From: Nitrospira sp.
Lineage (GTDB): Bacteria; Nitrospirota; Nitrospiria; Nitrospirales; Nitrospiraceae
Reading direction: 5' to 3'
Assembly: GCA_015903995.1 (NCBI GenBank)
Contig: JABMDK010000014.1
Coordinates: 269,104-323,165, forward strand
Length of the DNA: 54,062 nucleotides
Part shown: positions 3,304 through 38,341 of the stretch, in pieces
Position numbering within the stretch: position 1 is the stretch's first letter
Layout: every line of letters starts with the position of its first letter
Made by a program: the position numbers and the translations under genes
Notes under the pieces: model-generated
What the model saw: only the letters and a program-made list of their open reading frames with translations
What the model was told of the DNA's origin: nothing
The model's database searches: none

Positions 3304-3696
3304 ATGAAATCTCCATGGAGCATGTTATGTCTATGTCTGTTCATGGCTACCATAGGCTGCGGCAGCGACAGGGCTGAAATCAAGGAAGACCGTCTCACCG
3401 TCGGCAAGGTACAGGGTGAAATCAAAGTCGGTATGCCAGCCTCACAGGTTGCCGAACTCCTGGGAAGCCCCAATATCGTGACCACGGACGAGAAGCGGCG
3501 CGAGGTCTGGATCTATGACAAGGTGTCGACTGATCGTGTCGACACAGCAAGTTCTTCCTTCGCGGGCATCATTATTCTTGGCGCAACCTCCCATAACAGC
3601 TCCAGCTCACAGCGCCAGCGGACCCTCACGATCATCATCAAGTATGACGAAGAGAAGAAGGTTCGCGACTTTGCTTACAACTCTACACAGTTCTAG
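3304..3696 (+). CDS. SmpA/OmlA (BamE-like) fold lipoprotein
   Basis: 130 residues. ATG 3304 was chosen because it follows AGAAAGGGG and gives a proper lipoprotein signal with lipobox TIGC; the 27 residues upstream in frame are not signal-like. The body has the SmpA/OmlA signature: KVGMPASQVAELLGSPN followed by EVWIYDK, then a Ser-rich loop and a final beta strand. BamE-type proteins sit in the outer membrane, but this domain also occurs in many unrelated small lipoproteins, so membership of the BAM complex is not implied. First gene of a four-lipoprotein run. Confidence 0.75.
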   Translation: MKSPWSMLCLCLFMATIGCGSDRAEIKEDRLTVGKVQGEIKVGMPASQVAELLGSPNIVTTDEKRREVWIYDKVSTDRVDTASSSFAGIIILGATSHNSSSSQRQRTLTIIIKYDEEKKVRDFAYNSTQF

Positions 3697-3697
3697 C

Positions 3698-4309
3698 ACG
3701 AGCGACTATTCTGGAGCTTGGCGAACGCTTCTGGCGGTGGTGTGCCTAGCCGTGTCGAGCCAGCTTGTCGGGTGTATTGCGCACACACAACCGGACGCAC
3801 TGTTCCAGCTTACACCTGAGAGCGCAGCCAACCGAGCCATGCAAAGCCGCCTCTTCGAGACCAAGGATGAAGCGGAGTTATTGTCCGCCTCAGCCGCTGT
3901 CCTGCAGGATCTTGGTTTCCAGGTCGAAGAAAGCGTGCGCGAGGTCGGCTTTTTGAGAGCGACGAAAGAACGAAGCGCTCGGGAGTACGGCCAAGATATC
4001 ACCCGCTTTATCGTCTTTCTCCTAAGCACCCCGCTGGTGTTCCTCCAACAGCCTCCGATCATCATGCCCGTGGACCTGCACCAAAAAATCGCTGCTGCGC
4101 TGGTCGCCAGACCAGCGACTCCAGATGCCACACGTCAGGAAGTCAGGGTTGTGTTCTACCGGGTCGTGTGGAAAGGAGAGGGTTCGTCCGGTCAACATGG
4201 AATTCCACCGGGCGAGCAACGGATGGAAATGCTGCGCGACCCGGTGATGTACCAGACCTTCTTTGCAAAATTGTCAAAAGCTGTATTCCTGGAACCATTC
4301 GCACTCTGA
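3698..4309 (+). CDS. Lipoprotein, paralogue 1 of 3, apparent ACG start
   Basis: 203 residues if translation begins at ACG 3698, two bases after the upstream stop. That start gives a signal sequence of normal length (residues 1-21, with Arg before a hydrophobic run) ending in the lipobox LVGC. No ATG, GTG or TTG in frame gives a good signal; the nearest GTG (3737) leaves only 12 residues and no basic residue. So this is either a rare ACG start coupled to the preceding gene or a mutated ATG. The mature part shares with the next two genes the pattern QSRLFETKD...LQDLGFQVEE and the C-terminal YQTFFAKLSKAVFLE. A hydrophobic stretch FIVFLLSTPLVFL lies in the middle. Function unknown. Confidence 0.7.
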   Translation, partial: TSDYSGAWRTLLAVVCLAVSSQLVGCIAHTQPDALFQLTPESAANRAMQSRLFETKDEAELLSASAAVLQDLGFQVEESVREVGFLRATKERSAREYGQDITRFIVFLLSTPLVFLQQPPIIMPVDLHQKIAAALVARPATPDATRQEVRVVFYRVVWKGEGSSGQHGIPPGEQRMEMLRDPVMYQTFFAKLSKAVFLEPFAL

Positions 4310-4319
4310 TCGCGAGGTC

Positions 4320-4757
4320 ATGATGAAGACAGAGACAGCGGCAGGAATCATCGCAGTCGCCATACTTGTTATCACGCTGGGCTGCGCCGCACCGCAGCCC
4401 AGTCCGGACCTACTGGCGCCGACCGAGGCACAGATGAAGATCCGGAGCGTGCAAACCCGGTCCTTCGACATCAAGGATCGCCAAATGGCCATGCGCGGCA
4501 TCATTGCGGCGTTGCAGGACTTAGGATTCATCATCGAGCGGGCCAATGAACCGTTGGGGCTGGTGACGGCTGCGCGTTTCGCCGAGCCGAACTTCTACGA
4601 TGTCGTGGGCGTGACGGTCACTGTGCGCACCGAAGCCGAAGGCCGTATGATGATTCGTGTCAACGCCATCTACAACAACAAACCCATCGAAGATCCTAAG
4701 GTGTACCAAAATTTCTTCGCCACACTGGAACGCGCCCTCTTTGTCACCAAGAATTAA
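4320..4757 (+). CDS. Lipoprotein, paralogue 2 of 3
   Basis: 145 residues from ATG 4320, with GAGGTC just upstream. Lipoprotein signal with lipobox TLGC. The mature protein keeps the family pattern QTRSFDIKD, ALQDLGFIIERANEPLGLV and YQNFFATLERALFV, and is the shortest of the three. It lies 10 nt after the previous gene and its stop overlaps the next start (TAATG), so the genes are probably cotranscribed and translationally coupled. No function can be named. Confidence 0.8.
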   Translation: MMKTETAAGIIAVAILVITLGCAAPQPSPDLLAPTEAQMKIRSVQTRSFDIKDRQMAMRGIIAALQDLGFIIERANEPLGLVTAARFAEPNFYDVVGVTVTVRTEAEGRMMIRVNAIYNNKPIEDPKVYQNFFATLERALFVTKN

Positions 4758-5374
4758 TGGACAGGGTCTCTCACCAGAGGAACAGTGATGAACGTACCCG
4801 GCCCATCGCAGGGTCGGGGCTGCTCCTCCCCTGGCTCTTCGCCTGCCTCTGCCTGCTATTACAAGGGTGCCCGACGCCCTACGAATTACGGCATGCCAAT
4901 CAGTGGGACTCGCGCGAGCAAATCTGGCTCTCTGAAGAAAGCCAGGTCAAGATTCGCGCCGCCCAATCGCGTGTATTCGATACCGCGGATCGTCGTCGGA
5001 TGCTCGCGACCGTTGTTTCCACCCTGCAGGACTTGGATTTCAAAGTGGAGGTGCTTGATGAAGAACTGGGCGTCATCTCCGGAAAAAAATACGTCGAGAA
5101 CGAGCGGATCTATGGCGTCGACTTGAGTTATCTGCTGTATCAACCCGATGCGTTACTCGTCCTCAACCGCTATTATCGAACATGGGGCCCCTTCAGTCAC
5201 CGCAGTAATCTGGTTCGCTTCACGGTTACCGTCCGCAAGCGCAATGAATCGCAGATCATCGTGCGGGCCAGCGCTCAGTTTTACCTTCATGCCGTTGAGA
5301 ACCCTGCTCCCTATCAACAGTTCTTCTATGCCCTGGAACAAGCGGTCTTTCTGGAAAGCCACTCGGTGGAATAG
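4757..5374 (+). CDS. Lipoprotein, paralogue 3 of 3
   Basis: 205 residues; its ATG overlaps the preceding stop by one base. Long N-region, then a hydrophobic segment and lipobox LQGC near residue 38. The family core is clear: QSRVFDTADRR, TLQDLDFKVEVLDEELGVISGKK and YQQFFYALEQAVFLES. An inserted segment around residues 115-150, rich in Tyr and Leu, is not in paralogue 2. About 215 nt without a recognisable gene follow before the HDOD gene. Confidence 0.8.
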   Translation: MDRVSHQRNSDERTRPIAGSGLLLPWLFACLCLLLQGCPTPYELRHANQWDSREQIWLSEESQVKIRAAQSRVFDTADRRRMLATVVSTLQDLDFKVEVLDEELGVISGKKYVENERIYGVDLSYLLYQPDALLVLNRYYRTWGPFSHRSNLVRFTVTVRKRNESQIIVRASAQFYLHAVENPAPYQQFFYALEQAVFLESHSVE

Positions 5375-8131: not shown

Positions 8132-9556
8132 TCAGCTGCTTCCAGGAGGGCTCTGCGTGGATTGCCACGAGGCCGATCGGACCATCTTGCCCCACTCTGC
8201 TTTGGTCCCGCGAAGCCATCGCCAGAGACCGATCAGTTTCCAGTAGGAATTCAGCTGCCGATATCCGAAGTTTTCAACGACCGAGACGCACAGCAATTTC
8301 AAAAGATCCGAGGGACGCTGATACAGGTGAAACGTCATTTCTTCCATGAGCAGGGCGCTCAACGAGAGCGTGATGCCAAACCCGACGGCGACAAACATGC
8401 AGACCATCCAGACATGCAAGGAGACCAACCCGAATACAAGCCCGGCAAGCAAGAGCACATATCCGAGTATCTCGAACGTCGGCCCAAACCATTCAAAGAT
8501 CACCATGAACGGAAAGGCGAGCCAGCCGACAGTCCCGCCCTTTCGATGACAGCACAGCTCGAAGTGGCCCGCCAGGCTGTCGCATAAGCCGCGCTGCCAG
8601 CGGATGCGCTGATTCCTGAGCGTACGAAAGTCCTCCGGCACCTCGGTCCAGCAGACCGGATCCGGCACATACGTAATGCGATAGGGCTGGCCGTTCAGGC
8701 GGTAATGGTGGTGCAAGCGCACCACCAATTCCATATCTTCACCGATCGTGTTGGTGCGATACCCTCCGACTTTCAACACCGCTTCTTTTCGAAACAAGCC
8801 AAAGGCGCCGGAGATAATCAGCATCGCATTCAGCGGAGACCACCCCTGACGCCCGGATAGAAACGCACGCAAGTATTCAACGGTTTGCAACAGCGCCAGG
8901 AAGCTGGACGGCAGACCCACGGTCTTCAGAAGCCCATTGTCCACGATACAGCCGTTGGCAACGCGAACGGTGCCGCCCGCAGCGATGGTGCGAGATTCGA
9001 GCAAGAACGGCTGGACCACGCGATACAAACTGTCCTGCGCCAAGATGGAGTCGGCATCGATGCAACAAAACAACGGATACACGGACAGATTGATTCCGGC
9101 ATTGAGGGAATCCGCCTTGCCCCCGTTCTCTTTGTCGATGACACGGACATTCGCGTAGATCGACGAATGATACGTGGCACGCACCGGTTGAGTCGGCAGA
9201 TCGTGGCTGTAGGATTCGGGAAACGGCTTCAATCCGAACTCCTGCCTCAGCACGTCGACGGTGTTGTCGGTCGAGCCGTCGCTGACGACGACGATTTCAT
9301 ACTCGGAATACTTCAGCTGGAGCAAAGATCGAATAGAATTCGCGATCGTCGCCGCTTCGTTGTATGCTGGCACAATGATGCTGATTTGCGGCTCATACCC
9401 CGTAAATGCACCGGGAAATCCTTCTCCTCGTCGCTCCTCGAAATACTGCCGAAGCGAAAAAATGGAGATGAGATTGAGCCCCAGATATCCCCCGGTCAAA
9501 GCGGCCAAGTACAACAAAAACCCCGACTGAACGATGGTAAAGATGGTTTCCGGCAT
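8132..9556 (-). CDS. Processive family 2 glycosyltransferase (polysaccharide synthase)
   Basis: 474 residues from the ATG at 9556; an upstream start at 9589 is possible but would crowd the divergent promoter. N-terminal membrane segment (about 5-35), then a GT-A domain with IIVPAYNEA, VVVSDGSTDNT, CCIDADS (the DxD type metal site), TIGEDMELVVRL (catalytic acid region) and QRIRWQRG (the QxxRW acceptor/product motif of processive synthases). Several membrane helices follow (about 330-440). This layout matches inner-membrane synthases of the hyaluronan/PgaC type that polymerise and extrude a beta-linked polymer; the sugar cannot be told. Divergent from the cluster at 9615-14184. No PilZ domain is attached. 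Confidence 0.85.
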   Translation of the reverse strand: MPETIFTIVQSGFLLYLAALTGGYLGLNLISIFSLRQYFEERRGEGFPGAFTGYEPQISIIVPAYNEAATIANSIRSLLQLKYSEYEIVVVSDGSTDNTVDVLRQEFGLKPFPESYSHDLPTQPVRATYHSSIYANVRVIDKENGGKADSLNAGINLSVYPLFCCIDADSILAQDSLYRVVQPFLLESRTIAAGGTVRVANGCIVDNGLLKTVGLPSSFLALLQTVEYLRAFLSGRQGWSPLNAMLIISGAFGLFRKEAVLKVGGYRTNTIGEDMELVVRLHHHYRLNGQPYRITYVPDPVCWTEVPEDFRTLRNQRIRWQRGLCDSLAGHFELCCHRKGGTVGWLAFPFMVIFEWFGPTFEILGYVLLLAGLVFGLVSLHVWMVCMFVAVGFGITLSLSALLMEEMTFHLYQRPSDLLKLLCVSVVENFGYRQLNSYWKLIGLWRWLRGTKAEWGKMVRSASWQSTQSPPGSS

Positions 9557-9614
9557 TATGCGTTCTGCTTCGGATGCATCGTGGCCCATTCCCGATGGTC
9601 AGACGTGTCCCTGC

Positions 9615-11195
9615 ATGAGTCGCCTTTCGTGGACGGCGGCGATCCCGATGCTACTCGTGCTCTGCCTCTGGCCATCCTCGGCAAAGTCCCAAGAACTCGC
9701 GGTTCCCGGGCAGACGCCTCCGACGGACATCCAAGAAATCGAATTAACGTATGCGGGGGATCAGGCCGTTCCAAAAATTATAGTGCGAGGTCGGCAACCG
9801 GCCAATTCTTTTACTCTTTCTTCCCAACGCCCTTCCGATCCACATCTCGTCATTTTTTCGCCGACCGCCGCCGGCACCCCGGTCGGCGGCTGCCGGATAC
9901 AGCAAGAACACGTCGCCCCTCCGCTTCGAGTTCGCGTCACTCACAAGGGAACATCCCCCTGCGAGGTAGGATGGTCTCTCCGAACAGCGAACAACAGCTT
10001 GGACGTATTGTCCTTCCAGGCGCTCCGAGTGCGTGGGGCGACCTCCAGCCCCTTGACGATTGTCCTGGTGGCAGAATCCGCTGATCAGCGGCAGGACAGC
10101 GCCGTGGTCGGGCGTGTCGCCGGCCAGTTTGATGTCGAGCTCCCGCTTGCGCCGGTTGCGCGGCAACTCGATCTTCGACGCCTCACGCAGGTGAAGCTGC
10201 TCGTCGAGGATGCCGCGGACATCGTGCTGGAAGAATGCGCATGGATGAATCGAGAGCCGGCCACGCCTCCCATCCCCTCCATCGGCTTTTGGTATTGGGA
10301 TTACCGAACGGCGATACGCGACCCTGACGGAATGCGATCTGCGTGCCGGCAACATCACTGCCGGCGGTTATTGCTCCAGCTGCCGGATATGCGAGACTCC
10401 GACCAGGTGTGGGCCGCCTACGCCGCGCTGTTCGCCTCGACAAAGACAGCGGGTATCGAATTGTTTGCGCTCGACGGCGCCCCGGACATGATCGATACCC
10501 CGGCGAGCCTGACCGAGAAGCTCGCCCGATTGCTGACACTCGTCGGCAACAGCGGGCTCCCCGGGATACAGTTGGACATTGAGCCCTATCTGCTCGATGG
10601 CTTTCCCGATGACGTCACGATCTTCGACCGGTATCTCGACACCATCGAGCGCGTGAACGCGGCCCTCGGCGGTCGAGGGCGATTATCCGTCGTCATCCCG
10701 TTTTGGTTCACCTCGACGATGCATCGGAGACGACCGCTCGCATTTGCCGTGATGGATCGCGTCGATGAGGTCGCCGTGATGAGCTATCGAACGGATGTGG
10801 ATGAGTTGGCGGCGATCAGCGACGACACCCTGCGCTACGGCCGGCTACAAGGCATCCCGGTCTGGCTTGCCATGGAAACCACGCGCCTCCTGCCGGAACG
10901 GCATGTCACCTTGAAGCGAGAAGACGATCCGACCCTCGCGGACGGGATCCTAGACCCAGTGCGGAGGAGTTTGACGTTGGGGCGCATACCAGCCGCCGAG
11001 GTACGGAGGCAAGGTGGAATAGGGTTTCGCATCCACCACGACACGACTATAGACCCCGAGCGCCTTTCCTTTGCAGATCGTACTCGGCGCGACGTCCGTC
11101 ATGCGATCACTCGTGTATTTGCCGACATCCGTACGCCAAGTTTTTCCGGACTGTTGATCCACGATCTCCCGGGCTACTTGGGGTTGCACGAATAA
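9615..11195 (+). CDS. Secreted two-domain protein with GH18-like TIM barrel
   Basis: 526 residues. ATG 9615 was chosen because it begins a clean signal peptide (MSRLSWTAAIPMLLVLCLW...AKSQ); the frame upstream is not signal-like and would overlap the divergent gene. Residues about 35-215 look like a beta-rich jelly-roll domain ending in VKLLVEDAADIVLEECAW. From about 220 a barrel-type domain starts (SIGFWYWDYR), with GIQLDIEPY (Asp321, Glu323) at the place where GH18-type enzymes carry the catalytic acid, and VDEVAVMSYRTD on a later strand. It probably binds or cuts the polymer made by the adjacent synthase in the periplasm. No exact family name can be given. Its stop lies one base before the next ATG. 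Confidence 0.65.
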   Translation: MSRLSWTAAIPMLLVLCLWPSSAKSQELAVPGQTPPTDIQEIELTYAGDQAVPKIIVRGRQPANSFTLSSQRPSDPHLVIFSPTAAGTPVGGCRIQQEHVAPPLRVRVTHKGTSPCEVGWSLRTANNSLDVLSFQALRVRGATSSPLTIVLVAESADQRQDSAVVGRVAGQFDVELPLAPVARQLDLRRLTQVKLLVEDAADIVLEECAWMNREPATPPIPSIGFWYWDYRTAIRDPDGMRSACRQHHCRRLLLQLPDMRDSDQVWAAYAALFASTKTAGIELFALDGAPDMIDTPASLTEKLARLLTLVGNSGLPGIQLDIEPYLLDGFPDDVTIFDRYLDTIERVNAALGGRGRLSVVIPFWFTSTMHRRRPLAFAVMDRVDEVAVMSYRTDVDELAAISDDTLRYGRLQGIPVWLAMETTRLLPERHVTLKREDDPTLADGILDPVRRSLTLGRIPAAEVRRQGGIGFRIHHDTTIDPERLSFADRTRRDVRHAITRVFADIRTPSFSGLLIHDLPGYLGLHE

Positions 11196-11196
11196 C

Positions 11197-13026
11197 ATGC
11201 GCACCGTATCCCTCTTAGAACGACCATTTCTGCACGCGGGTATTCCGCTGTTGTTCTACTGCACCCTGTCGACCATGGGCGGAGTCGGAACCGCACAGCC
11301 TCAGAATACGGACACGCCGTCCTCACGAGCCTTGCTCGAACAGGCGACACATCACGAATCCGCTCAACGGTATCACGACGCCATTCCGCTCTACCGGGAA
11401 GTCCTCCGGCGCGAGCCGGAACGAGACGACATCCGAGCAACCTTGGCTCGCCTGCTGTCCTGGCAAGGCGCTCATGCGGAAGCCGCGGACTTGTATCGAG
11501 CGATCCTTCGGCGGCACCCGGTCGACCTCGATATACGGACCGCGCTCGCGCGGGTGTTATCGTGGCAGAAACACATGGACGAAGCGCGAACGCTCTACGA
11601 GGGCGTGCTTCGTGAACAGGCCCGCCATCCCGAGGCGCTCCAAGGACTGGCGGACGTCCTGTTGTGGGAGGGACGCTCGGAGGAGGCACTCCGATACTAC
11701 GAACAAGCCTATGCCCTGTCGAACGATGCGGCCATCGCCGAGCGCATGGTGTCGATTCGGAGCGCGATCGCTCAACGAGAACAGAGCCCCCCGGCGGCCG
11801 TCCACCCGCCTGTCTCCACCGGACGAGACGAGATGGTCGCGCGCGCACGGGCATGGGAGCGGAATGCCGAGTATGGACCAGCCATCGCCGTCTACCGACA
11901 GATCCTTGCAGAACATCCGGAAGACGACGAAGTCAACGGGGCGCTCGCCCGCGTACTGGCCAGAGACGGGCAATTCGAACCGGCGGCGTCACTCTACCGC
12001 GACATCCTGACACGTCATCCCGCCGATATCGACGTTCAAATCGGATTCGCCCGCGTGCTCTCGTGGCAGAAACAGTTTCCTGCCGCGATCCAGCTGTTTC
12101 AGGACATCCTTCAGCGGGACAGCACGAATACAGACGCGTTGCGGGGATTGGCCGATACCCTCTTCTGGAGCGGGGCCTCGCAGGAAGCCCTGGTTCACTA
12201 CACACAATTGGCACAGGTGACGGGAGATCCGGAGAGTGCGGCGCGCGTACAGACCATCACAGCCTCGCTCGAAGCCTCCCCGCAGGCGCCGCTCGGCCTG
12301 CGGGATTCGACCATACGCCTGCCCTACCGAGACTATGCCAAGTTGGGCTACGGCCAGTTTTCCTATTCGCGGGACATTCCCGACGAGCGGAATATCCTCA
12401 TCGAAGCGGCCAAGTCGTTCGGCGCCTATACCGTGATCGGCAGGGTTGAACCGATCACCAGGTTCGGCTTCCACGACACGCCGGTGTCGGGCGAGTTGTA
12501 CAGCCCCTTATGGCGACGGGCGTGGGGATACCTGGCAGCACAGGGAACGATCAACTCTCATTTTTCACCCAATTACTCGATTGCAGGAGAGATCACGCAA
12601 GGGATGGGGCTCGTCCATCCCCTGCTCTCGAAGATTGAAGTCTCCTTCGGCTATCGACACCTCTCCTACAAGACCGGCGACAGCGATCTGTTGATCCCAG
12701 GCCTGACCGTCTTTTTGCCGTTCAATGTCTGGCTGACGGAGAAGCTCTATTATGTTCCGGAGACCGGTGCGATAACCCTCTCCTCTCGGCTGACCTGGCG
12801 CCCCATGAACCGTCTACAGATCTTCGCCTCCGGCTCATTCGGCACCTCGGGAGAACGTATCGTTGCCACACAGGATTTAACACGGGTGAGCAGCCATGCC
12901 GTCCAAGGAGGCATCACGCTCCCGATCGCCGAGCGATGGTCCTTAGAAGCCACCGGCTATTATGAAGACCGCGGTATTTTATACCGACGGCAAGGAGGGA
13001 GTTTCAGCGTCATCTATCACTGGTGA
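11197..13026 (+). CDS. TPR plus YaiO-like outer-membrane beta-barrel protein
   Basis: 609 residues: signal peptide (to about 33), then two TPR blocks (about 40-190 and 210-360) that look like an internal duplication, since both carry ALARVLSWQK-type repeats and end in an ALQGLADVLLW/ALRGLADTLFW segment. Residues about 375-609 alternate in beta-barrel fashion and end in Tyr-His-Trp, an outer-membrane aromatic terminus. The plan is that of exopolysaccharide export proteins (periplasmic TPR scaffold plus barrel, as in PgaA or YaiO). Directly follows the glycosidase-like gene, so an operon is very likely. Confidence 0.8.
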   Translation: MRTVSLLERPFLHAGIPLLFYCTLSTMGGVGTAQPQNTDTPSSRALLEQATHHESAQRYHDAIPLYREVLRREPERDDIRATLARLLSWQGAHAEAADLYRAILRRHPVDLDIRTALARVLSWQKHMDEARTLYEGVLREQARHPEALQGLADVLLWEGRSEEALRYYEQAYALSNDAAIAERMVSIRSAIAQREQSPPAAVHPPVSTGRDEMVARARAWERNAEYGPAIAVYRQILAEHPEDDEVNGALARVLARDGQFEPAASLYRDILTRHPADIDVQIGFARVLSWQKQFPAAIQLFQDILQRDSTNTDALRGLADTLFWSGASQEALVHYTQLAQVTGDPESAARVQTITASLEASPQAPLGLRDSTIRLPYRDYAKLGYGQFSYSRDIPDERNILIEAAKSFGAYTVIGRVEPITRFGFHDTPVSGELYSPLWRRAWGYLAAQGTINSHFSPNYSIAGEITQGMGLVHPLLSKIEVSFGYRHLSYKTGDSDLLIPGLTVFLPFNVWLTEKLYYVPETGAITLSSRLTWRPMNRLQIFASGSFGTSGERIVATQDLTRVSSHAVQGGITLPIAERWSLEATGYYEDRGILYRRQGGSFSVIYHW

Positions 13027-13083
13027 AACAGCCCGATGTCTTTGCGGACATGGGTATCGCATGCACCTAGCTGACCTAATCCC

Positions 13084-14184
13084 ATGCTCGAACTCTGGTA
13101 CGTGACCGCCCTGTCCATCGCGTGCATGATCCTGCTCCTCTTGGTAGGCATCTTGCTTTTCCGAATGAGTCGCCATGCAAAACAGCGTCGACGGCAGCGT
13201 GTCACGGCCCTGTGGCAACCGTTGTTGGAGCGGTGCCACGAGGCATCCCTCGACGGATTGCCGTCACTCACACCGCCCGAACACATCGCCTTTCTGTATC
13301 TCTGGAACGAACAGAACGAGGCCACGTCGGGTGCGACGACCGCTCAACTGAACCGCATGGCCCGGCACGTCGGCAGTGATCGTGTCGCCAAAAGCCTCTT
13401 ACGCTCACGGCTCTTGCGCCGACGAATTCTCGCACTCGTGACCTTAGGACGGCTACGGGACCAGTCCGCTTGGCAGGAGATCAGCGCGCTGCTGATACAC
13501 TCGAATTCGTTCTTGGCGTTCCAGGCGGCGCAGGCCCTCCTCCTGATCGACGCGACCGCCGCGATTCCGCTCTTAGTCCCGCTCATCGGCCGTCGAACAG
13601 ACTGGTCGCCGCTCAAAATCGCCTCGATGCTGAGCACGGCGGGACCGGATCTCGCCTCGGAAGCCATCGTCCAGGCGGCACGACAGGGAGATCCCGTCGT
13701 CGCCTCACGGTTGATCCGCCATCTGCCGACGACGCGCAGCGCACGCGGACTCCCCGCGTTACGGCAATTTCTGCAAGAGCGTCCGCCTGCAGACGATATG
13801 CTGGCAGCCTGTTTGTTTGCCTTCGGCGAATTCCGAGAGCAGACCGACCTTCAAATCATCCGCGATCATCTGTCACACCCGGCCTGGTACGTCCGGGTCC
13901 AAGCCGCTGCGGCGCTCGGAAAAGTCGGGACACAGGACGATGAAGCGCGCCTCATCGCGCTTTTCAATGATGAACAATGGTGGGTGCGGTATCGAGCCGG
14001 AGAAGCCCTGGCGAGTTTGCCGTCCATGACCGAGGACAAGCTGGAACGAATGCAAGAGACCTTGCCGACGCCTGAGGCCCAGGAAATCCTGGCCCCCGTG
14101 TTGGCGAAATTCCGCGCGCGCCAGGCTCAACGCTCCATCCATGGCGCAGCAGAGCGTACGGCCCTCGCCCCCACAAGCCAGTGA
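13084..14184 (+). CDS. Membrane-anchored HEAT-repeat protein
   Basis: 366 residues. One N-terminal membrane helix (about 5-27) followed by basic residues, so the bulk should be cytoplasmic. From about residue 95 helical HEAT-type repeats run to about 345: RRILALVTLGRLRD, LAFQAAQALLLIDATAAIPLLVPL, WYVRVQAAAALGKVG, WWVRYRAGEALASLPS. Such proteins are scaffolds. In several bacteria a HEAT protein accompanies a GT2 synthase and a YaiO-type barrel (from memory, not checked here). It starts 57 nt after the barrel gene and ends 26 nt from the convergent ABC-F gene. Confidence 0.75.
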   Translation: MLELWYVTALSIACMILLLLVGILLFRMSRHAKQRRRQRVTALWQPLLERCHEASLDGLPSLTPPEHIAFLYLWNEQNEATSGATTAQLNRMARHVGSDRVAKSLLRSRLLRRRILALVTLGRLRDQSAWQEISALLIHSNSFLAFQAAQALLLIDATAAIPLLVPLIGRRTDWSPLKIASMLSTAGPDLASEAIVQAARQGDPVVASRLIRHLPTTRSARGLPALRQFLQERPPADDMLAACLFAFGEFREQTDLQIIRDHLSHPAWYVRVQAAAALGKVGTQDDEARLIALFNDEQWWVRYRAGEALASLPSMTEDKLERMQETLPTPEAQEILAPVLAKFRARQAQRSIHGAAERTALAPTSQ

Positions 14185-28239: not shown

Positions 28240-28793
28240 GATCCCTTCAGACGAAATGCCAACCGAAACTGATACAAATTAATCTTGTTTTCGACGGCTG
28301 CTTTACTCTCCTGCAGACTGATGCCGGTAAAATAGTCCGTTCGTCGCAAATTATTCACGAATTCCACCACGTCGTCGTTGGTTAAGGCCTTCCCTTCCAG
28401 CTCCACGGTATCGGATGCCAGCCCCAGCTTTGTGAGCCATACCTTGAGCGGCTCCAAGCTCTGACTTACATGGTCGAGAACCTTCACCGGACCTACTCTG
28501 GATTGCTCAAGCTGATCAATGATCCGGTTCTTGTCCTCAAGAAGCTTTTTCCGTTGCTCAAAATCCTGTACTTGCTTGACCTGTTCCTTCAACTGAGCCA
28601 CTTGCTTTTCTTTCGCTTGTTTTTCCTCCTGCCGAGCTTCAAGCTCGCTGTCCAGCGAGGCCGAATACCACCAACACCCCGCCAGCGTGACCAGAATCAC
28701 GCCGACGCCGAGCAGCCCCTGCGCCCGCACGTCATACTGAGGTTTAGCCGGCCTTCCCTTTGGCCCACCCGGAAGCAGGTTAATCCGAATCAT
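28236..28793 (-). CDS. pilN: Type IV pilus assembly protein PilN
   Basis: 185 residues. Begins MIRINLLPGG, the conserved INLLP peptide that docks into PilM, then a membrane helix (about 27-47), a strongly charged coiled coil (about 50-100: LEARQEEKQAKEKQVAQL) and a small periplasmic domain. Start overlaps the pilM stop by 4 nt. The block copied at 37391-41453 stops inside pilM, so pilN has no second copy. Confidence 0.94.
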   Translation of the reverse strand: MIRINLLPGGPKGRPAKPQYDVRAQGLLGVGVILVTLAGCWWYSASLDSELEARQEEKQAKEKQVAQLKEQVKQVQDFEQRKKLLEDKNRIIDQLEQSRVGPVKVLDHVSQSLEPLKVWLTKLGLASDTVELEGKALTNDDVVEFVNNLRRTDYFTGISLQESKAAVENKINLYQFRLAFRLKGS

Positions 28794-29896
28794 CGATCCC
28801 CCACCGCTCTTAAGGCCAGTCCGACACTGACGGCTGCCGATGGAGCCAAATCTGCGAGTAGGTTCGGGTCCATATCACAGGCTGTCACATCGATTTCGGC
28901 GAATGGGTCAGCTAGTTCGACAGGTAGTTGCATCCGGTCGCCGAGCTGCTGGATCAGCCCTTTCGCCCGAGCCACGCCACCACAGACGAGCACACGGCTG
29001 AGCTCCGCATTGGTAGTCGACGTCTTGAAATAGTCGACGGTCCGAGCGATCTCGGACGCCACTTCCGCATTCACGCTGTCCATGACGCTGGTGAACGAGC
29101 CCCCGCTTGAGTCACCTGCCCGGTCAGATTTCTTGCTCTCTTCAGCCTCTTCAAACGAGAGCCCGATCTCGCGTTGAATCGCCTCAGTGTACCGATTCCC
29201 CCCCAACGGGATATCGCGCGTAAACAACGACGACCCGGCACGGATAATATTGACGTTCATCACGCTTGCGCCGAGATTCACCAGTGCCGTCGTTTCGTCC
29301 TGTGCCATCGGATAATTAATCGCATGCATATTCTCAACCGCAAACGCATCGACATCCATGACCATGGGAACAAGTCCAGCAGCCTTGACCAGCTCGGTCA
29401 GTTCATTAATCTTGTCTTTCTTCGCAGCGACAAGAATCACCGACATGTCCCCTTGCTGATCTTCCGAGGCATCCAATGACAGGACATGAAAGTCGATATT
29501 CACTTCGTTGATATCGAAGGGAATGTATTGCTCCGCAGCCAATTTCACCTGCCCCTCCAGCTCTTCATCCGGCATCGGAGGCAGACTGATCTTTTTCACA
29601 ATGACCGCATGCCCGGAAATCGAGATGGCAACCTGCTTGTTCTTGACGTTGAGTTCCCCAAATAATTCTTGAATCGCCGACACCACGCGCCCTTCATCCA
29701 TAACCGTTCCGTCGACAATCACTTCCGGCTCAAGCGGTTTCACGCCGAACTTTTGGAGAAAATACCGCCCCTTACTTTCCTTGAGCTGAGCGACTTTGAT
29801 CGCACTGGATCCGATATCGAGCCCCACTAATTGTCGGCGAGGGGTTAGCATCCCAACAATGTCGGTTTCGAAAAGTTTTTTGAATGACGTCAACAT
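28790..29896 (-). CDS. pilM: Type IV pilus assembly ATPase PilM (intact copy)
   Basis: 368 residues, full length. Actin-like fold: phosphate-1 loop VGLDIGSSAIKVAQL, connecting LVNLGASVMNVNIIRAG and adenosine motif VLVCGGVARAKGL. Cytoplasmic, ATP-binding and recruited by the PilN INLLP peptide. AAGGTGGTAGGTAACGC precedes the ATG. Residues 1-195 recur almost unchanged in the fusion at 36805-37977 (change GELNVKNKQ to KEVNVKNKH around residues 79-87). Confidence 0.95.
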   Translation of the reverse strand: MLTSFKKLFETDIVGMLTPRRQLVGLDIGSSAIKVAQLKESKGRYFLQKFGVKPLEPEVIVDGTVMDEGRVVSAIQELFGELNVKNKQVAISISGHAVIVKKISLPPMPDEELEGQVKLAAEQYIPFDINEVNIDFHVLSLDASEDQQGDMSVILVAAKKDKINELTELVKAAGLVPMVMDVDAFAVENMHAINYPMAQDETTALVNLGASVMNVNIIRAGSSLFTRDIPLGGNRYTEAIQREIGLSFEEAEESKKSDRAGDSSGGSFTSVMDSVNAEVASEIARTVDYFKTSTTNAELSRVLVCGGVARAKGLIQQLGDRMQLPVELADPFAEIDVTACDMDPNLLADLAPSAAVSVGLALRAVGDR

Positions 29897-29911
29897 GCGT
29901 TACCTACCACC

Positions 29912-30124
29912 TTACACGACAGCCTTTCGGGCGCGAATAACTTTCTCGATTTCATCCACATTCTTTTTCGTATACAGCCGCCAGTTTCTCCAATCTCGAG
30001 CAGGTTCGGTAATGACACCTTCTCGTTCCCACCGAAAGAGCGTCGCTTTAGAAATATCGAATAAGTCGCATACTTGATAGGCCTTGAACCCCTCTACACT
30101 CGCTGTATATTTAGGATTTTTCAC
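29912..30124 (-). CDS. Small MerR-type HTH regulator (copy 1)
   Basis: 70 residues from GTG 30124, the start shared with copy 2; an ATG at 30157 would add 11 residues not supported by copy 2. FKAYQVCDLFDISKATLFRWEREGVITEPARDWRNWRLYT is a MerR-like winged helix (helix-turn-helix plus wing WRLYT), with a short basic helix after it and no effector domain. 15 nt before pilM, so it may control the pil operon and itself. Confidence 0.8.
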   Translation of the reverse strand: MKNPKYTASVEGFKAYQVCDLFDISKATLFRWEREGVITEPARDWRNWRLYTKKNVDEIEKVIRARKAVV

Positions 30125-30127
30125 GTC

Positions 30128-30139
30128 AGTATTTATACT
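30128..30139 (-). promoter_or_regulatory. Conserved palindrome AGTAT-N2-ATACT at the regulator start
   Basis: AGTATTTATACT here and AGTATTAATACT at 38209-38220 in copy 2, where it is a perfect palindrome. It ends 3 nt before the GTG and includes TATAAA, which could be a -10 box giving a leaderless or nearly leaderless mRNA. No ribosome binding site is visible. An additional 14-bp palindrome TACTCACGTGAGTA further upstream is not kept in copy 2. Confidence 0.45.
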
Positions 30140-30260
30140 AGTTCTGAAGCCTTTCAATACTCACGTGAGTAAGTATAGTCAATATGCTCTACCTGTCAAG
30201 GAAGCGGTCAGGAAGCAAACGTCACGGCAGAGAAACGAGGGCTGTTACTCCGACGGCAGG

Positions 30261-31127
30261 CTAGGTTTTATCGATATCCCGGTGTTTGAGGCCGACCTCG
30301 TATCCCAGGGCAACGAGGCCTTCTCGAAGACGTCCGGCAACCGCAACCGAGCGATGCCGTCCGCCGGTACACCCGATACCGATGGTCAGATAACTACGCC
30401 GCTCTCGCTGGAAAAGCGGCAAGAGAAACCTCAACAGACCTTCGAGATGCTGCAAGAGTGCTATGGCATCAGAGTCGGTCAGGACAAAGGCCCGGACCAG
30501 CGGATCATCTCCGGACAGTGGCTTTAGTTCAGGCACGAAAAATGGATTTTTGAGAAATCGCACATCAAACAGCAAATCGATATCGTACGGCACCCCGAAC
30601 TTATACCCGAAGGTCATGAGTGAGATCGTCAGTCGACGACCCGATGACTCCCGTCGAAACTGCTTTGCCAGCAATTCACCGAGCTCATGGACCGTCAGAT
30701 CGGACGTGTCGATGATGCGGTCAGCCCGGGACCGGAGTTCCGCGACACGCTCTTTTTCGAATCGGATTCCATCCAAAACCGGAAGATGCGGCAACAGTGG
30801 GTGGGGCCGCCTAGACTCGGAAAAGCGCCTGATCAAGACCTCCTCACGAGCCTCAAGAAAAATCACTTGAACGGCATGCCCAAGCGCTTTCACCCGCTCC
30901 AAGATACCGACGAAATCGGAAAAGAATGCACGCTCTCTGATGTCAATTCCAAGCGCAACATTGGAAATTTCGCTCTGCTGCTGGTTGCAAAGATCAACAA
31001 ACGTCGGAAGCAGGGCCGGAGGAAGGTTATCGATGCAGAAATACCCGGCATCCTCAAAGGCTTTGAGGGCGTAGGTTTTACCAGAGCCGGACAGGCCACT
31101 AATAATGACGAGATTCAGCCTGGCCAT
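30261..31127 (-). CDS. rapZ: RapZ-type RNase adapter / nucleotide-binding protein (copy 1)
   Basis: 288 residues. Walker A GLSGSGKT at residues 11-18, then GYFCIDNLP, the middle segment SDLTVHELGELL, and the C-terminal RNA/metabolite-binding domain with IGIGCTGGRHRSVAVAG. In enterobacteria RapZ controls glmS mRNA decay through a small RNA; in other phyla its target is unknown. Position after rpoN and hpf is like E. coli, but ptsN and npr are absent. Confidence 0.93.
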   Translation of the reverse strand: MARLNLVIISGLSGSGKTYALKAFEDAGYFCIDNLPPALLPTFVDLCNQQQSEISNVALGIDIRERAFFSDFVGILERVKALGHAVQVIFLEAREEVLIRRFSESRRPHPLLPHLPVLDGIRFEKERVAELRSRADRIIDTSDLTVHELGELLAKQFRRESSGRRLTISLMTFGYKFGVPYDIDLLFDVRFLKNPFFVPELKPLSGDDPLVRAFVLTDSDAIALLQHLEGLLRFLLPLFQRERRSYLTIGIGCTGGRHRSVAVAGRLREGLVALGYEVGLKHRDIDKT

Positions 31128-31297
31128 GGGGTCGCAATTGCCTCGGTCGGCATATCTGAAATATCCCTATTGGGCACTCACGATCAGCCTCACGCACAAT
31201 TCCGCGACATCGCCCGCACTGATCCCCGCTCCGGCACATTATGCGCGCTAAGGAGGGGGCCGCAAGATCTCACGAGAGGCTCACATAGGAAACGCGA

Positions 31298-31609
31298 TCA
31301 CAATCCCTTCGGTTGGGTCGGCTTATGATTGACAAGGCGCTCCTTCCATTTTCGAAACTGCGCATCTACACGGTCGACAAGGGCATCGATGGTGGCATAC
31401 ATCTCCGTCGTCGATGTCTTGGCTTGCACTCGTTTGCCGCTGACCGCACCGGTCACTTCGGCCTTATGTTGCAGCTTCTCCACTCCCAATACCACTTGCA
31501 GCGATCCGACCTTCAGCCCGTATCGATCCAAGCGACCGAATCGGGTCTCGACATAACTTCTTAGTGCTGGTGTGATGTCCATGTGGCGCCCGGTAATTCT
31601 CAGCTTCAT
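31298..31609 (-). CDS. hpf: Ribosome hibernation promoting factor, short form (copy 1)
   Basis: 103 residues from ATG 31609, with TTGGAGGTGGGC just upstream; the frame extends further but overlaps rpoN. MKLRITGRHMDITPALRSYVETRF...KVGSLQVVLGVEKLQHKAEVTG is the S30Ae/HPF fold, which binds the decoding site of idle ribosomes. It lacks the C-terminal dimerisation domain of long HPF. Follows rpoN; a 170-nt non-coding gap separates it from rapZ. Confidence 0.92.
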   Translation of the reverse strand: MKLRITGRHMDITPALRSYVETRFGRLDRYGLKVGSLQVVLGVEKLQHKAEVTGAVSGKRVQAKTSTTEMYATIDALVDRVDAQFRKWKERLVNHKPTQPKGL

Positions 31610-31653
31610 GCCCACCTCCAATTTGGATTTGGCTGGATGCGAAGCAACGGTGA

Positions 31654-33162
31654 TCAAAAAAATCGCTTACGCTGACTGGCGGATGAGATATTCAACTCGG
31701 CTCGATATTTCGCCACCGTTCTCCGCGCGATCAGTACCCCCTGCTTGCGAAGCCGGGCTGCAATTTCCTCATCTTTCAAAGGGCGTTTTCCATCCTCTTC
31801 AGCGACCATGGTCTTGATCATATCCCTGACGGAAACAGAGGAATGCATCCCTGACGGCTCATCAGCCCGTTGCAGCCCTGCATTGAAGAAAAACTTGAGT
31901 TCCAACATGCCCTGCGGGCAATACATGTACTTATTGGCGGTCACACGACTGATCGTGGATTCATGCATCCCGATATCCTCTGCCACCTGCTTGAGAACCA
32001 AGGGCTTGAGATACTGGACGCCATGGTCGAAAAATTGCTCCTGGAACTTGACGATACTGGACACCACTTTCACGATGGTCCGATTGCGCTGCTCGATGCT
32101 TCGAATAATCCACTGCGCAGCCCGCAACTTTTCATCCATATACGCTTTGGTTTCAGATGTGCCGCTCTGTCCGGAAGAAATAAGCTGTTTGTAATACGGG
32201 CTGATCCTCATGCGTGGGAGTCCATCGTCGTTTAGCAGCACCACCCACTCCCCTTCATTCTTCACCACAAATACATCAGGCACGATCACGTAGTTCTGGG
32301 TATTGGAAAACGGCCTCCCCGGTTTTGGCTCAAGTTCTCCAATGATTTTGGTGGCCTGAAAGACCTCCTCGACCGTAACGTCCAAGGCTTTTGCGACCTT
32401 GGCATACTGTTTCTTCTCCAGATCTTTCAAATGGTGCAACACGATACGCTCAATCACTGACCCCTTCAATGCTCCAGGTGGTGACCCAAGTGATCCAAAC
32501 AGATTCCGACCTAGATGTCTGAGTTGCAGCAGAAGGCATTCGGGAAGATCACGTGCACCAACTCCGGTCGGATCAAACATTTGAATGTCTTTGAGAACAG
32601 ATTCGACTTCGGACTCGGCAAAACTACTCCCGGCCACTACCTCAGCCATAGGAATACGAAGATAGCCATCATCATCCAGATTGCCGATGATCAAGCGTCC
32701 GAGTTCTTTTTCTCGATCACCCAGCCCGGACAAGGACAGCTGCCAGAGGAGATGCTCCTCAAGCGAGGTTGCTTTTGCAAGTGTTTGCTCGTACGACGGG
32801 AACTCATCTGGCGCCGAGGAATATTCCGACCCGCCGCCCCGGTGCTCCCTGCCGAAATAGTCTTCCCACCCGGACGCGGAAAACTCCTCTGGCGATCCTT
32901 GCTCTTCGCGTGTCTCCACCGCGACGTCCGACTGCTCCTGCCCGTCCACCGCAGGGGAAGCTTCAACCTTTTCCTCATTGGCCAACGACTCGCCTTCCTC
33001 GACATCGGATTGCATTTCATCCAGCAATGGGTTTTCCAGGAGATGCTGCGTGAGGCTCTGCTGGAGTTCCAGGCGAGACAACTGCAGCAGCTTGATCGCT
33101 TGCTGCAATTGAGGTGTCATGATGAGCTTTTGGCTGAGTTGTGGAACTAGACGGAGTTTCAT
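31654..33162 (-). CDS. rpoN: RNA polymerase sigma-54 factor (copy 1)
   Basis: 502 residues from ATG 33162 (GGAGAGGTATCG upstream). Region I is the Gln/Leu-rich activator-responding segment (MKLRLVPQLSQKLIMTPQLQQAIKLLQ), followed by an acidic linker (about 55-125), the core-binding domain (about 135-320), the HTH and the C-terminal RpoN box ARRTVAKYRAEL that reads the -24 element. All parts are present, so it should be functional. Ends 45 nt before hpf and starts 20 nt after lptB. Confidence 0.95.
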   Translation of the reverse strand: MKLRLVPQLSQKLIMTPQLQQAIKLLQLSRLELQQSLTQHLLENPLLDEMQSDVEEGESLANEEKVEASPAVDGQEQSDVAVETREEQGSPEEFSASGWEDYFGREHRGGGSEYSSAPDEFPSYEQTLAKATSLEEHLLWQLSLSGLGDREKELGRLIIGNLDDDGYLRIPMAEVVAGSSFAESEVESVLKDIQMFDPTGVGARDLPECLLLQLRHLGRNLFGSLGSPPGALKGSVIERIVLHHLKDLEKKQYAKVAKALDVTVEEVFQATKIIGELEPKPGRPFSNTQNYVIVPDVFVVKNEGEWVVLLNDDGLPRMRISPYYKQLISSGQSGTSETKAYMDEKLRAAQWIIRSIEQRNRTIVKVVSSIVKFQEQFFDHGVQYLKPLVLKQVAEDIGMHESTISRVTANKYMYCPQGMLELKFFFNAGLQRADEPSGMHSSVSVRDMIKTMVAEEDGKRPLKDEEIAARLRKQGVLIARRTVAKYRAELNISSASQRKRFF

Positions 33163-33181
33163 CGATACCTCTCCAGCTCCT

Positions 33182-33964
33182 CTATAACTTGAATTGCTCC
33201 CCAAGATACACAGCCCGAGCCGTCGGACTCTGCACAATAGCCTCAGGAGACCCTGCCTCTAAGATCAATCCTTCATTGATGATGTAGGCACGGTCGACGA
33301 TTGATAGCGTTTCCTGCACGTTATGATCGGTAATCAATATGCCGATCCCTTTCGCTTTCAATCGCATAATGATCTGCTGAATATCCGCGACGGCTATCGG
33401 ATCGATCCCTGCAAACGGTTCATCCAATAGCATGAACGATGGTGTGGCTGCCAGCGCACGCGTGATTTCCAAGCGACGACGTTCTCCCCCTGAGAGGGCA
33501 TAGGCCATACTCTTTCGTATATGGAGAAGATCTAACTCCTTGAGCAAGGCATCCACCCGCTGACTTCGCTCTTGACGAGCATACCCTAGCATTTCAAGAA
33601 TCGCCAAGACATTATGTTCAACCGAGAGTCGCCGGAAAACAGATGACTCCTGGGGAAGGTAGCCGATTCCCCGCCGTGCGCGTTTATACATCGGCAAGTT
33701 GGTCACGGACTCTCCGATGAAGGTGATCTCCCCTTCATCGGGTTGACACAAACCCACGATCATGTCGAAGATAGTGGTCTTGCCTGCTCCATTCGGACCG
33801 AGAAGCCCAACCACCTCACCGGCGTAGACTTCAACGGCGACGCCCTTGACGACTTTGCGCCCACGGAAGCTTTTCACCAATCCAGTTGCGCGTAAACAGC
33901 GCCCCTGCTGCGCCACAATAGGATCGACACGCTCATCTGAGTCAGCATGAACAGTCGGGGTCAT
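33182..33964 (-). CDS. lptB: LPS export ABC ATPase LptB (intact copy)
   Basis: 260 residues, with a 25-residue N-terminal extension before the ABC domain. Walker A GLLGPNGAGKTT, Q-loop YLPQESSVFRRL, signature LSGGERRRLEI, Walker B LLDEPFAGIDP and H-loop ITDHNV. Powers transport of lipopolysaccharide from the inner membrane with LptFG (not in the window). Its ATG overlaps the lptA stop. The last ~62 codons recur at 41258-41453. Confidence 0.95.
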   Translation of the reverse strand: MTPTVHADSDERVDPIVAQQGRCLRATGLVKSFRGRKVVKGVAVEVYAGEVVGLLGPNGAGKTTIFDMIVGLCQPDEGEITFIGESVTNLPMYKRARRGIGYLPQESSVFRRLSVEHNVLAILEMLGYARQERSQRVDALLKELDLLHIRKSMAYALSGGERRRLEITRALAATPSFMLLDEPFAGIDPIAVADIQQIIMRLKAKGIGILITDHNVQETLSIVDRAYIINEGLILEAGSPEAIVQSPTARAVYLGEQFKL

Positions 33965-34560
33965 GGCTGACTCGGCTCCTCTCCCTCAATGCGAACATGT
34001 GATCCGCCTTCCACCACACTCCGTTCTTCCGCCATGAAAATGGTAATTTGTTTGCCACTGACACGCGTGCCCCTTTCCCATGCTATGGGATCACCCGTCA
34101 ATACGATCTTCTCTCCGTCAACGAAATACACAGCTTTTTGGCAGGTCGCATTCCCATTCTCATACTTAATCTTGACACGATGGGCATCTCCAGTCGCTTC
34201 GATACGTTGGACAGATCGATTCGACATAGGCGATACAGCGCTGTGGTCTGTGCGAGCCGAGGGATTCCGGTGGTCCGTCCCACCTCCCGATGGCAGCGAG
34301 AGATCGCGATTTCTCGAAGTAAACAGCACAACCATCTTATCCGAGTGAACGATGAGCGGTCCGCGGGACAGCACAACCGTATCCTCAAAAATGGCCTGGC
34401 TGTCTTGATTTCGTACGGTCATTTTCTTAGAGGTAATGGTGGTTGAAACACTGGGCGCCTCCGCACTCCTCGTCAGATTCACAGAGTCCGTTGAAGGAGC
34501 TGCCGACGTGGATCCGACACAGAGGGCACTAAGAAGAAGGAGCCAGATCCACATGCACAT
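33961..34560 (-). CDS. lptA: LPS periplasmic bridge protein LptA
   Basis: 199 residues from the ATG at 34560, which starts a signal peptide (MCMWIWLLLLSALCVGSTSAA). The mature part has the beta-jellyroll pattern of the OstA/LptA family: SKKMTVRNQDSQAIFEDTVVLSRGPLIVHSDKMVVLF and CQKAVYFVDGEKIVLTGDPIAWERG. The insert at about 80-120 is longer than in E. coli LptA. Starts within the end of lptC and overlaps lptB by 4 nt. Confidence 0.88.
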   Translation of the reverse strand: MCMWIWLLLLSALCVGSTSAAPSTDSVNLTRSAEAPSVSTTITSKKMTVRNQDSQAIFEDTVVLSRGPLIVHSDKMVVLFTSRNRDLSLPSGGGTDHRNPSARTDHSAVSPMSNRSVQRIEATGDAHRVKIKYENGNATCQKAVYFVDGEKIVLTGDPIAWERGTRVSGKQITIFMAEERSVVEGGSHVRIEGEEPSQP

Positions 34561-35101
34561 CCTGTAGCACCTCAAATTCTTCCGATTCCATTCGCCCAAG
34601 CAGTCCTTGCCCCCTTACTTCCAACCCATGCCCCACGATTCGGACAGGATCCTCTGTCCGAATTTCTCGTGCCTGGTCCGTCCAGACCAAGTGGTTGGTA
34701 TAAATCGTATAGCCACTCCTCGTTTCCACAACAATGGGCGCTTGGCGATTTGCCAACCGAAAATTCTTGGTCGCAGTATCCAGCGTTCCTTCTTCCCCAC
34801 GCACAGTCACTTCATCTCCTCCTGTACCGTAGAAAGTGAGGGCGACGTCTCGCAACACCGCACGCTTATCTTGTTCAAATAGCCGAGCCTGTTTAGCCTG
34901 TACCTGCCACTGGACCACTTCCCCCTTCGATTGAGTAAAAATAAACTCCAAGATCTTGGCATCGGCTTGTTCAATCGACTCTGGAGCGATGGGGCGGCTA
35001 TTCTGAGCTGAATCGGAGTTTCTGAAGAGCAGATAGCCGAGAAATGTCGCTAACAACACACTCACGGTAAGAAGAGCCCGCCTCGCTACAAGCTCCCACA
35101 T
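34529..35101 (-). CDS. lptC: LPS export protein LptC
   Basis: 190 residues: one N-terminal membrane helix (about 8-26), then the LptC/OstA-type beta domain (LEFIFTQSKGEVVQWQVQAKQARLFEQDKRAVLRDVALTFY...VRGEEGTLDTATKNFRL). Passes LPS from LptBFG to LptA. First gene of the lptCAB-rpoN-hpf-rapZ group; a terminator at 35191-35231 separates it from rplQ, so its own promoter should lie in 35102-35190, where no strong consensus is seen. Confidence 0.88.
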   Translation of the reverse strand: MWELVARRALLTVSVLLATFLGYLLFRNSDSAQNSRPIAPESIEQADAKILEFIFTQSKGEVVQWQVQAKQARLFEQDKRAVLRDVALTFYGTGGDEVTVRGEEGTLDTATKNFRLANRQAPIVVETRSGYTIYTNHLVWTDQAREIRTEDPVRIVGHGLEVRGQGLLGRMESEEFEVLQDVHVDLAPSS

Positions 35102-35190
35102 GCTCTAGGAATTTCCACGATATAGGTTCATGACGGTACCTGGCACGATCGTAGCATGCATAGCTCGTCAAGTAAACGTCCTCGGGAAAG

Positions 35191-35231
35191 TGAAAACAAA
35201 AAGGCTCCCATGTGGTACCACATGGGAGCCT
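35191..35231 (-). terminator. Rho-independent terminator of the ribosomal protein operon
   Basis: 30-nt perfect palindrome (35202-35231, centre GGTACC) followed on the minus strand by TTTTTGTTTT. It lies about 30 nt after the rplQ stop and ends the long superoperon transcript. Confidence 0.92.
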
Positions 35232-35262
35232 CCAGACCGGCAGTTCCAGTATGTGCGTAAAA

Positions 35263-35694
35263 CTATGTTGAAGATCCAACTTCAGCGGGTGTTGGCTGAG
35301 CCGTATGGCCTTCTGATTTTTTCTTTGTGGTTAACTCTTGACGAGAAACCAATTCGATGGCCACCATTTCAGCTGCATCGCCAATGCGGCGACGAGTTTT
35401 AACGATCCTCGTGTACCCTCCGGGTCGGTCTTTGAATCGTGCCGCTACATCGCTAAACAGCTTAGACACAACAGCCTTGCTGCGGATAAAGGCTAAGGCG
35501 CGTCGACGCGCAGGGAGTGTCCCCTCCTTGCCAAGGGTGATCATGCGATCAGTAAACCCTCGTATCTCCTTAGCCTTCGCTCCTGTCGTCTCGATACGCT
35601 CTTGGTCTAACAACGAAGTCACTAAGCTCCGAAACAACGCCCATCGATGCTTCGTCTGTCGTCCAAGTTGTCGTCCCTTTTTTCTATGTCGCAC
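35263..35694 (-). CDS. rplQ: 50S ribosomal protein L17
   Basis: 143 residues. [37 protein letters not shown] is the conserved N-terminus, and [25 protein letters not shown] closes the folded domain. The last ~25 residues ([20 protein letters not shown]) are a disordered tail beyond the usual ~120. Last gene of the superoperon, just after rpoA. Confidence 0.96.
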
Positions 35695-35718
35695 GGTAAT
35701 CCTCTTGATTGGAAAGCA

Positions 35719-36723: not shown

Positions 36724-36804
36724 GACCCACCCTCCATACCATCGAGTGACTAAGACATTGGCGGATTACGCCGATACCCAAAGACCGCACCGCAGACCAG
36801 TAGA

Positions 36805-37977: not shown

Positions 37978-37992
37978 GCGTTACCTGCCACC

Positions 37993-38205
37993 TTACACGA
38001 CAGCCTTTCTGGCGCGAATAACTTTCTCGATTTCATCCACATTCTTTCTCGTATATAGCCGCCAGTTTCTCCAATCTCGAGCGGGTTCGGTAATGACACC
38101 CTCCCGTTCCCAGCGAAAGAGCGTCGCCTTGGAAATGTCAAATAAGTCGCACACTTGATAAGCCTTAAACCCCACGGCATTCGATGTATATTTAGGTCGT
38201 TTCAC
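37993..38205 (-). CDS. Small MerR-type HTH regulator (copy 2)
   Basis: 70 residues from GTG 38205. Same as copy 1 except for a few residues at the start (KRPKYTSNAVG against KNPKYTASVEG) and Lys to Arg in the wing region, so the DNA-reading helices are identical and both would bind the same sites. 15 nt before the truncated pilM. The palindrome AGTATTAATACT lies at 38209-38220. Confidence 0.8.
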   Translation of the reverse strand: MKRPKYTSNAVGFKAYQVCDLFDISKATLFRWEREGVITEPARDWRNWRLYTRKNVDEIEKVIRARKAVV

Positions 38206-38341
38206 GTCAGTATTAATACTAGTTCTGATGCCTTTTGTTATTCACAAGGCTAAGTATAGTCAATATGCTCTACCTGTCAAGGAAGCGGTAAGGAAGCGAG
38301 AGTCACGGCAGGGAAACGCTGGTTGTTATTCCAACAGCAGG

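Follow-up and report, generated by a model that had tools for sequence, protein, structure and literature searches.

A candidate synthase-dependent exopolysaccharide locus of Nitrospira with a HEAT-repeat partner, apparently a reduced member of an undescribed and widespread system

Introduction

What does a four-gene locus that joins a polysaccharide synthase to a HEAT-repeat protein make, and how would such a locus be controlled? The question is raised by positions 8,132 to 14,184 of a 54,062-nucleotide stretch of a Nitrospira sp. contig (GenBank assembly GCA_015903995.1, contig JABMDK010000014.1; the whole stretch is here called the window), where a gene for a glycosyltransferase of family 2 (GT2) lies beside genes for a secreted protein with a (beta/alpha)8 (TIM) barrel, an outer-membrane protein of tetratricopeptide repeats (TPR) and a beta-barrel, and a HEAT protein. 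Nitrospira are nitrifiers known from flocs and biofilms, and the well-studied synthase-dependent systems, being those for cellulose, poly-N-acetylglucosamine (PNAG) and the Nfr polysaccharide, are activated by cyclic di-GMP (c-di-GMP). We consider it probable that the locus is a synthase-dependent exopolysaccharide system for the synthesis, trimming or clearance, and export of a polymer of the N-acetylglucosamine (GlcNAc) type, in which a module of HEAT and receiver proteins takes the place of c-di-GMP and PilZ. The system, which is reduced in the window, is apparently undescribed and spread over several bacterial phyla.

Results

Layout of the locus

A previous reading, made by a model from the letters alone (the sequence-only reading), had noted a processive GT2 synthase diverging from three adjacent genes that encode a secreted TIM-barrel protein, a TPR plus beta-barrel outer-membrane protein and a membrane-anchored HEAT protein, and this observation was confirmed in each of its parts. 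The four open reading frames (ORFs) are uninterrupted (Table 1). The annotated starts of the GT2 and secreted-protein genes overlap head to head, and homologue alignments and the sequence favour the shorter form of both. The gaps among the three rightward genes are 1 and 57 bases; as these genes are almost contiguous, one transcript would fit. Three sigma-70-like sites were found in the region, versus 1.7 expected, and none in the divergent gap.

Table 1. Features of the locus, with deacetylase remnants found in two relatives
Feature	Position	Strand	Basis
GT2 processive polysaccharide synthase	8132..9556 (ORF open to 9589; start probably 9556)	-	PF00535, PF13641; DGS/DAD/GED/QRIRW motifs
Divergent intergenic region, 58 bp	9557..9614	none	Sequence; both promoters presumed here
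Secreted GH18/PgaB-C-like (beta/alpha)8 protein with N-terminal beta domain	9615..11195 (ORF open from 9534; start probably 9615)	+	AlphaFold2 model
TPR scaffold and YaiO-type outer-membrane barrel, presumed exporter	11197..13026	+	TIGR04390, PF19413, predicted model, C-terminal Trp
HEAT-repeat protein with single N-terminal transmembrane helix	13084..14184	+	PF13646; HEAT part predicted cytosolic
Broken deacetylase remnants in two relatives	L030:2275-5306 and L031:4029-5006		Between HEAT and ABC-F gene

Conservation and distribution

The association of these genes exceeds chance. The secreted protein was matched in 18 of 148 genomes drawn from the phylum, 16 of which belong to the same genus and family, and in all 15 Nitrospiraceae regions fetched, each from a different genome, the divergent GT2 gene, the TIM gene and the TPR/barrel gene occur together with the HEAT gene nearby. 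The set holds together down to an identity of approximately 40% in the secreted protein. When species genomes of GTDB were scanned with a profile, 78 loci emerged, which extend the synthase and HEAT pair with its glycosidase-like protein beyond what the sequence-only reading had described, to Alpha-, Beta- and Gammaproteobacteria and to Brevibacillus (Bacillota). Among 17 non-Nitrospira loci with the same synthase, the HEAT gene is present in every one and the TPR/barrel gene in 11; the exporter gene is missing from all four loci of Brevibacillus, which has no outer membrane. The Brevibacillus loci hold genes for GlmS, a GlmU-type protein and a nucleotide-sugar dehydrogenase between the synthase and TIM genes.

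Twelve genomes carry the TIM gene with no GT2 gene within 10 kb, and the same GT2 is encoded elsewhere in 11 of them (E 1e-129 to 1e-203; GT2s that are not related reach approximately 1e-6 to 1e-10 with the synthase profile in these data). The HEAT gene directly adjoins each of these remote GT2 genes, one of the cases being a short fragment, and in total all 12 remote synthase loci that were tested have HEAT. A second HEAT-GT2 pair, accompanied by no TIM, exporter or deacetylase gene, is present in the genome of the window itself beside a typA-like gene (contig C13, about 167.4-170.5 kb; L127:12432-14999); the listed contamination of this genome is 5.9%. In one Nitrospira metagenome-assembled genome a single ORF of 1070 aa (L087:8387-11599) unites the GT2 (residues 82-537) and the TIM protein (546-1063).

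The HDOD genes, which the sequence-only reading had placed alongside, were ruled out as members, since they flank the locus only in the four nearest relatives. Upstream of the HDOD-GAF gene, positions 3515-5374 hold three adjoining small ORFs (264, 164 and 205 aa) that are alike in make-up, have lipoprotein-like starts and look like tandem paralogues; a Pfam scan of two of them gave no match.

The synthase

The GT2 protein exceeds the Pfam cut-offs for PF00535 (2.5e-25), PF13641 (6.1e-26) and PF13632, and an alignment of homologues shows that the processive motifs DGS, DAD, GED and QRIRW are all present and conserved. Its best curated model is PgaC/IcaA (TIGR03937), at 144.6 bits versus a cut-off of 422.3, and it reaches 41.2 bits versus 699.1 with the BcsA/CelA model of cellulose synthases (TIGR03030). 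Neither PilZ nor MshEN was matched in a Pfam scan of the protein, in keeping with the earlier remark that PilZ is missing.

The secreted protein

The secreted protein has no match among the Pfam and NCBIfam families, GH18 (PF00704) and deacetylase domains included. Its AlphaFold2 model (pLDDT 81) consists of a beta-rich N-terminal domain followed, at residues 244-553, by a (beta/alpha)8 barrel, whose best alignments are with a chitinase domain of the GH18 type (4wiw; Z 18.3) and with the C-terminal domain of PgaB (Z 17.4), the two being tied within 1 Z unit. When its profile was compared with solved structures a single chain was matched (10yv, E 1.8e-12), whose label, "Putative GH97", could not be checked.

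The GH18 motif is DxxDxDxE. In the secreted protein beta4 (residues 344-347) is followed by D348-I-E350, which places an Asp-x-Glu at the end of beta4 as in GH18, with Q346 at the position of the proximal Asp. D348 and E350 are invariant in 41 diverse homologues, as are W391, M416 and Y418. In the hydrolase domain of PgaB (GH153) the Asp is present, without an equivalent of the second catalytic residue, Glu (PMC5933820). A distant homologue reaches 26.7 bits with PF00704 versus a cut-off of 29.6; its locus, from another class of the phylum (L044:5440-11546), comprises genes for a GT2, for an HlyD-like protein and for a GH18-like protein of 769 aa that is weakly similar to the TIM protein, and is perhaps another synthase arrangement, to be taken as a lead only.

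The TPR/barrel and HEAT proteins

The third gene product belongs to the YaiO family (TIGR04390, 75.6 bits with a cut-off of 32; PF19413, 38.7 bits with a cut-off of 23.9) and carries TPRs in addition. Its predicted model has 14 strands, the barrel aligning to Omp33, OmpG and FadL (Z about 17-19), and the protein ends in Trp. The PgaA model (TIGR03939) gives 73 bits through the TPR part only, with a cut-off of 366.65, and the BcsC model stays far under its cut-off.

The HEAT protein matches HEAT_2 (PF13646) with 84 bits and has one N-terminal transmembrane helix, with a charge of +6 after it versus -1 before it. This positive bias is shared by 70 of 72 HEAT homologues; under the positive-inside rule the HEAT part would lie in the cytosol. 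A protein predicted to be cytosolic, which accompanies the synthase more constantly than any other and usually occurs with a receiver protein, looks like a regulator or scaffold on the synthase side rather than a member of the line of trimming and export.

Deacetylase and receiver genes of the relatives

Most relatives outside the clade of the window possess a further gene of 620-660 aa with weak to clear matches to PF01522 and intact NodB-like motifs (THDxD; SHxxxHS), which is separate and not fused to the TIM barrel; a sequence search of its product against the PDB gave no match. In most deacetylase-bearing Nitrospira loci a stand-alone receiver gene (approximately 130 aa) lies 24 bases or less from the system, and such a gene stands beside the system in 21 of 39 Nitrospira-like loci and in 16 of 18 other loci (within 1.5 kb). 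None was found near the system in the clade of the window.

In the GT2 tree the window falls in a clade of 16 rows (support 100/100) that is nested among deacetylase-bearing rows and of which 15 lack the deacetylase. No homologue of the relatives' deacetylase was found in the genome of the window, where the HEAT-to-ABC-F interval measures 26 bases. In that same interval one close relative (G036) retains a deacetylase remnant in two pieces with a stop, and another (G027) mainly the second half of the gene; in a more distant member (G091) a deacetylase homologue is on another contig. The simplest reading of these sequences is that deacetylase and receiver were lost secondarily in the lineage of the window. 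Nothing was found to link a PF01522 deacetylase elsewhere in the genome (C124) to the locus. The earlier statement that there is no deacetylase holds for this locus and fails for the wider system.

Comparison with known systems

PgaABCD, which makes PNAG, resembles the locus family in its processive GT2, its outer-membrane protein of TPR and barrel, its (beta/alpha)8 domain of the PgaB-C kind and, in the full versions, its deacetylase. The differences are that no Pga model reaches its cut-off, that the functions of PgaB are shared by two genes, that the barrel is of the YaiO and not the PgaA type, that HEAT and receiver proteins are added, and that the Asp-x-Glu site differs from GH153; nor is the secreted protein a two-domain PgaB, in which a NodB deacetylase is fused to GH153. 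The system is Pga-like in logic and agreed with Pga in none of the tests applied.

In E. coli, the yaiP-yaiO-yaiS locus likewise combines a GT2 with a neighbouring barrel of the YaiO family and a deacetylase, but the latter is of the PIG-L type, a different family, YaiP reaches no more than 4e-10 with the GT2 profile, no TPR was matched in YaiO, and no HEAT or TIM gene is annotated there; what the two have in common is limited to the barrel family and the overall concept. The Nfr system of E. coli (NfrA-NfrB-YbcH) makes a secreted polysaccharide with a GT2, a TPR and outer-membrane pore protein and a periplasmic third protein (PMC8669469), and is alike in these three components. The Bcs system for cellulose also has a processive GT2, a periplasmic glycosidase and a TPR-barrel exporter; in contrast, the locus has no PilZ match and no BcsB-like protein among its four genes, and the BcsA/CelA and BcsC models lie far under cut-off. 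Two further candidates were rejected as counterparts: the psc clusters of EmbRS/psc in Rubrivivax are Wzx/Wzy and PEP-CTERM loci (PMC3684757), and the Thauera floc deacetylase tmz1t_3249 is listed as a member of that syntenic cluster (PMC4784049).

Elsewhere in the window, a block of pilM, a 288-aa ORF and rpoN (sigma-54) is repeated at 28790-41280 as an imperfect tandem duplication with a spacing of approximately 8.08 kb and an identity of 92-93% in the stretches compared. The second copy of pilM is truncated and runs on in the same reading frame into ribosomal protein S4 (36805-37977), with rpoA and genes for ribosomal proteins as neighbours; a true duplication and an artefact of assembly are both conceivable.

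Discussion

A processive GT2, a periplasmic enzyme and a TPR/barrel exporter are inherited together here, as in synthase-dependent systems generally, and the conserved neighbourhood and the real barrel support the earlier view of the locus as one of synthesis and export. We propose that the GT2 would polymerise a UDP-sugar, most likely UDP-GlcNAc, and move the chain across the inner membrane; that the secreted protein would cut or clear the periplasmic chain through its GH18-placed Asp-x-Glu; and that the TPR-YaiO protein would guide the chain and export it through the barrel. On the cytosolic face the HEAT protein may hold or gate the synthase, and in most relatives the nearby-encoded single receiver-domain protein would signal through it. 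The full system would add the NodB-type deacetylase, and the lineage of the window, having lost deacetylase and receiver genes, is expected to export its polymer without deacetylation and under another form of control.

Several points weigh against this proposal. We infer the HEAT-GT2 and HEAT-receiver contacts from gene order alone, and likewise infer the identity of the polymer, a role in biofilms, the role of the HEAT protein and the activities; experiments on any member of the system were not found. The families of the GT2 leave its sugar unfixed. The TIM protein is outside every curated hydrolase family, and the similarity of its predicted fold is no proof of catalysis. Roughly half of the searched Nitrospira genomes are without the synthase, and the system is therefore not essential.

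Considering that the sugar cannot be predicted from GT2 families, the same architecture might serve a polymer not based on GlcNAc, such as a glucan, a uronan or a mixed chain. The nucleotide-sugar dehydrogenase of the Brevibacillus loci and the ability of the window's lineage to manage without a deacetylase would suit such a polymer, and E350 (beta4) could form with E448 (beta7) a glutamate pair of the clan GH-A type. The GlmS, GlmU-type and dehydrogenase genes together nevertheless point to UDP-GlcNAc, and GlmS/GlmU neighbours, NodB-type deacetylase and GH18-like site favour an N-acetylhexosamine polymer of the GlcNAc type, which may include a uronic residue; we regard a polymer without GlcNAc as unlikely, although it is the alternative that survives best. 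Less likely again is a divergent Pga system with PgaB split over two genes and ordinary poly-beta-1,6-GlcNAc as product. PgaC/IcaA is indeed the closest curated synthase model, the C-domain of PgaB is among the best structural matches of the TIM domain, the full versions have a separate NodB-type deacetylase and the exporter is a TPR-barrel; against this stand the distant equivalog cut-offs of PgaC (144.6/422 bits) and PgaA (73/367 bits), the invariant D348-x-E350 where GH153 of PgaB is without the second catalytic residue (PMC5933820), the YaiO-type barrel and the constant additional HEAT partner. That there is no single export machine, the secreted protein being a scavenging glycosidase by chance beside an envelope-glycan synthase, is suggested by the distance between TIM and synthase genes in some bacteria and by a distant TIM homologue (L043) adjoining GH3-like and sodium:solute symporter-like genes (named by eye), and is made very improbable by the conserved gene order, the presence of the synthase elsewhere in 11 of the 12 genomes whose TIM gene stands alone, the fused GT2-TIM ORF and the absence of the exporter from all four monoderm loci.

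The interpretation given by the sequence-only reading is, as a whole, partly supported: the set is conserved in relatives and the barrel is real, so that neither outcome named as counting against it (a neighbourhood not conserved, or a third gene product without a barrel) occurred. The complete route that it described is best kept as a proposal. No matching description of the gene set, of a HEAT and GT2 system or of a YaiO-family counterpart was found in the open-access literature, and one may exist elsewhere. We give an even chance to the broader proposal that these loci form an undescribed, phylum-crossing class of synthase, in which a cytosolic, membrane-anchored HEAT protein is the obligate partner of the GT2 and a two-component signal, delivered by a dedicated receiver, replaces c-di-GMP, the window holding a stripped form from which receiver and deacetylase are missing. 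If this is true, the constant HEAT partner and the nearby receiver gene would add a new gating mechanism for the synthesis of polysaccharides. In Brevibacillus the synthase, HEAT, receiver and glycosidase-like genes occur without an outer-membrane exporter, which indicates that the synthase core is separable from the export part. For Nitrospira, the locus is a testable candidate for the source of a matrix polymer.
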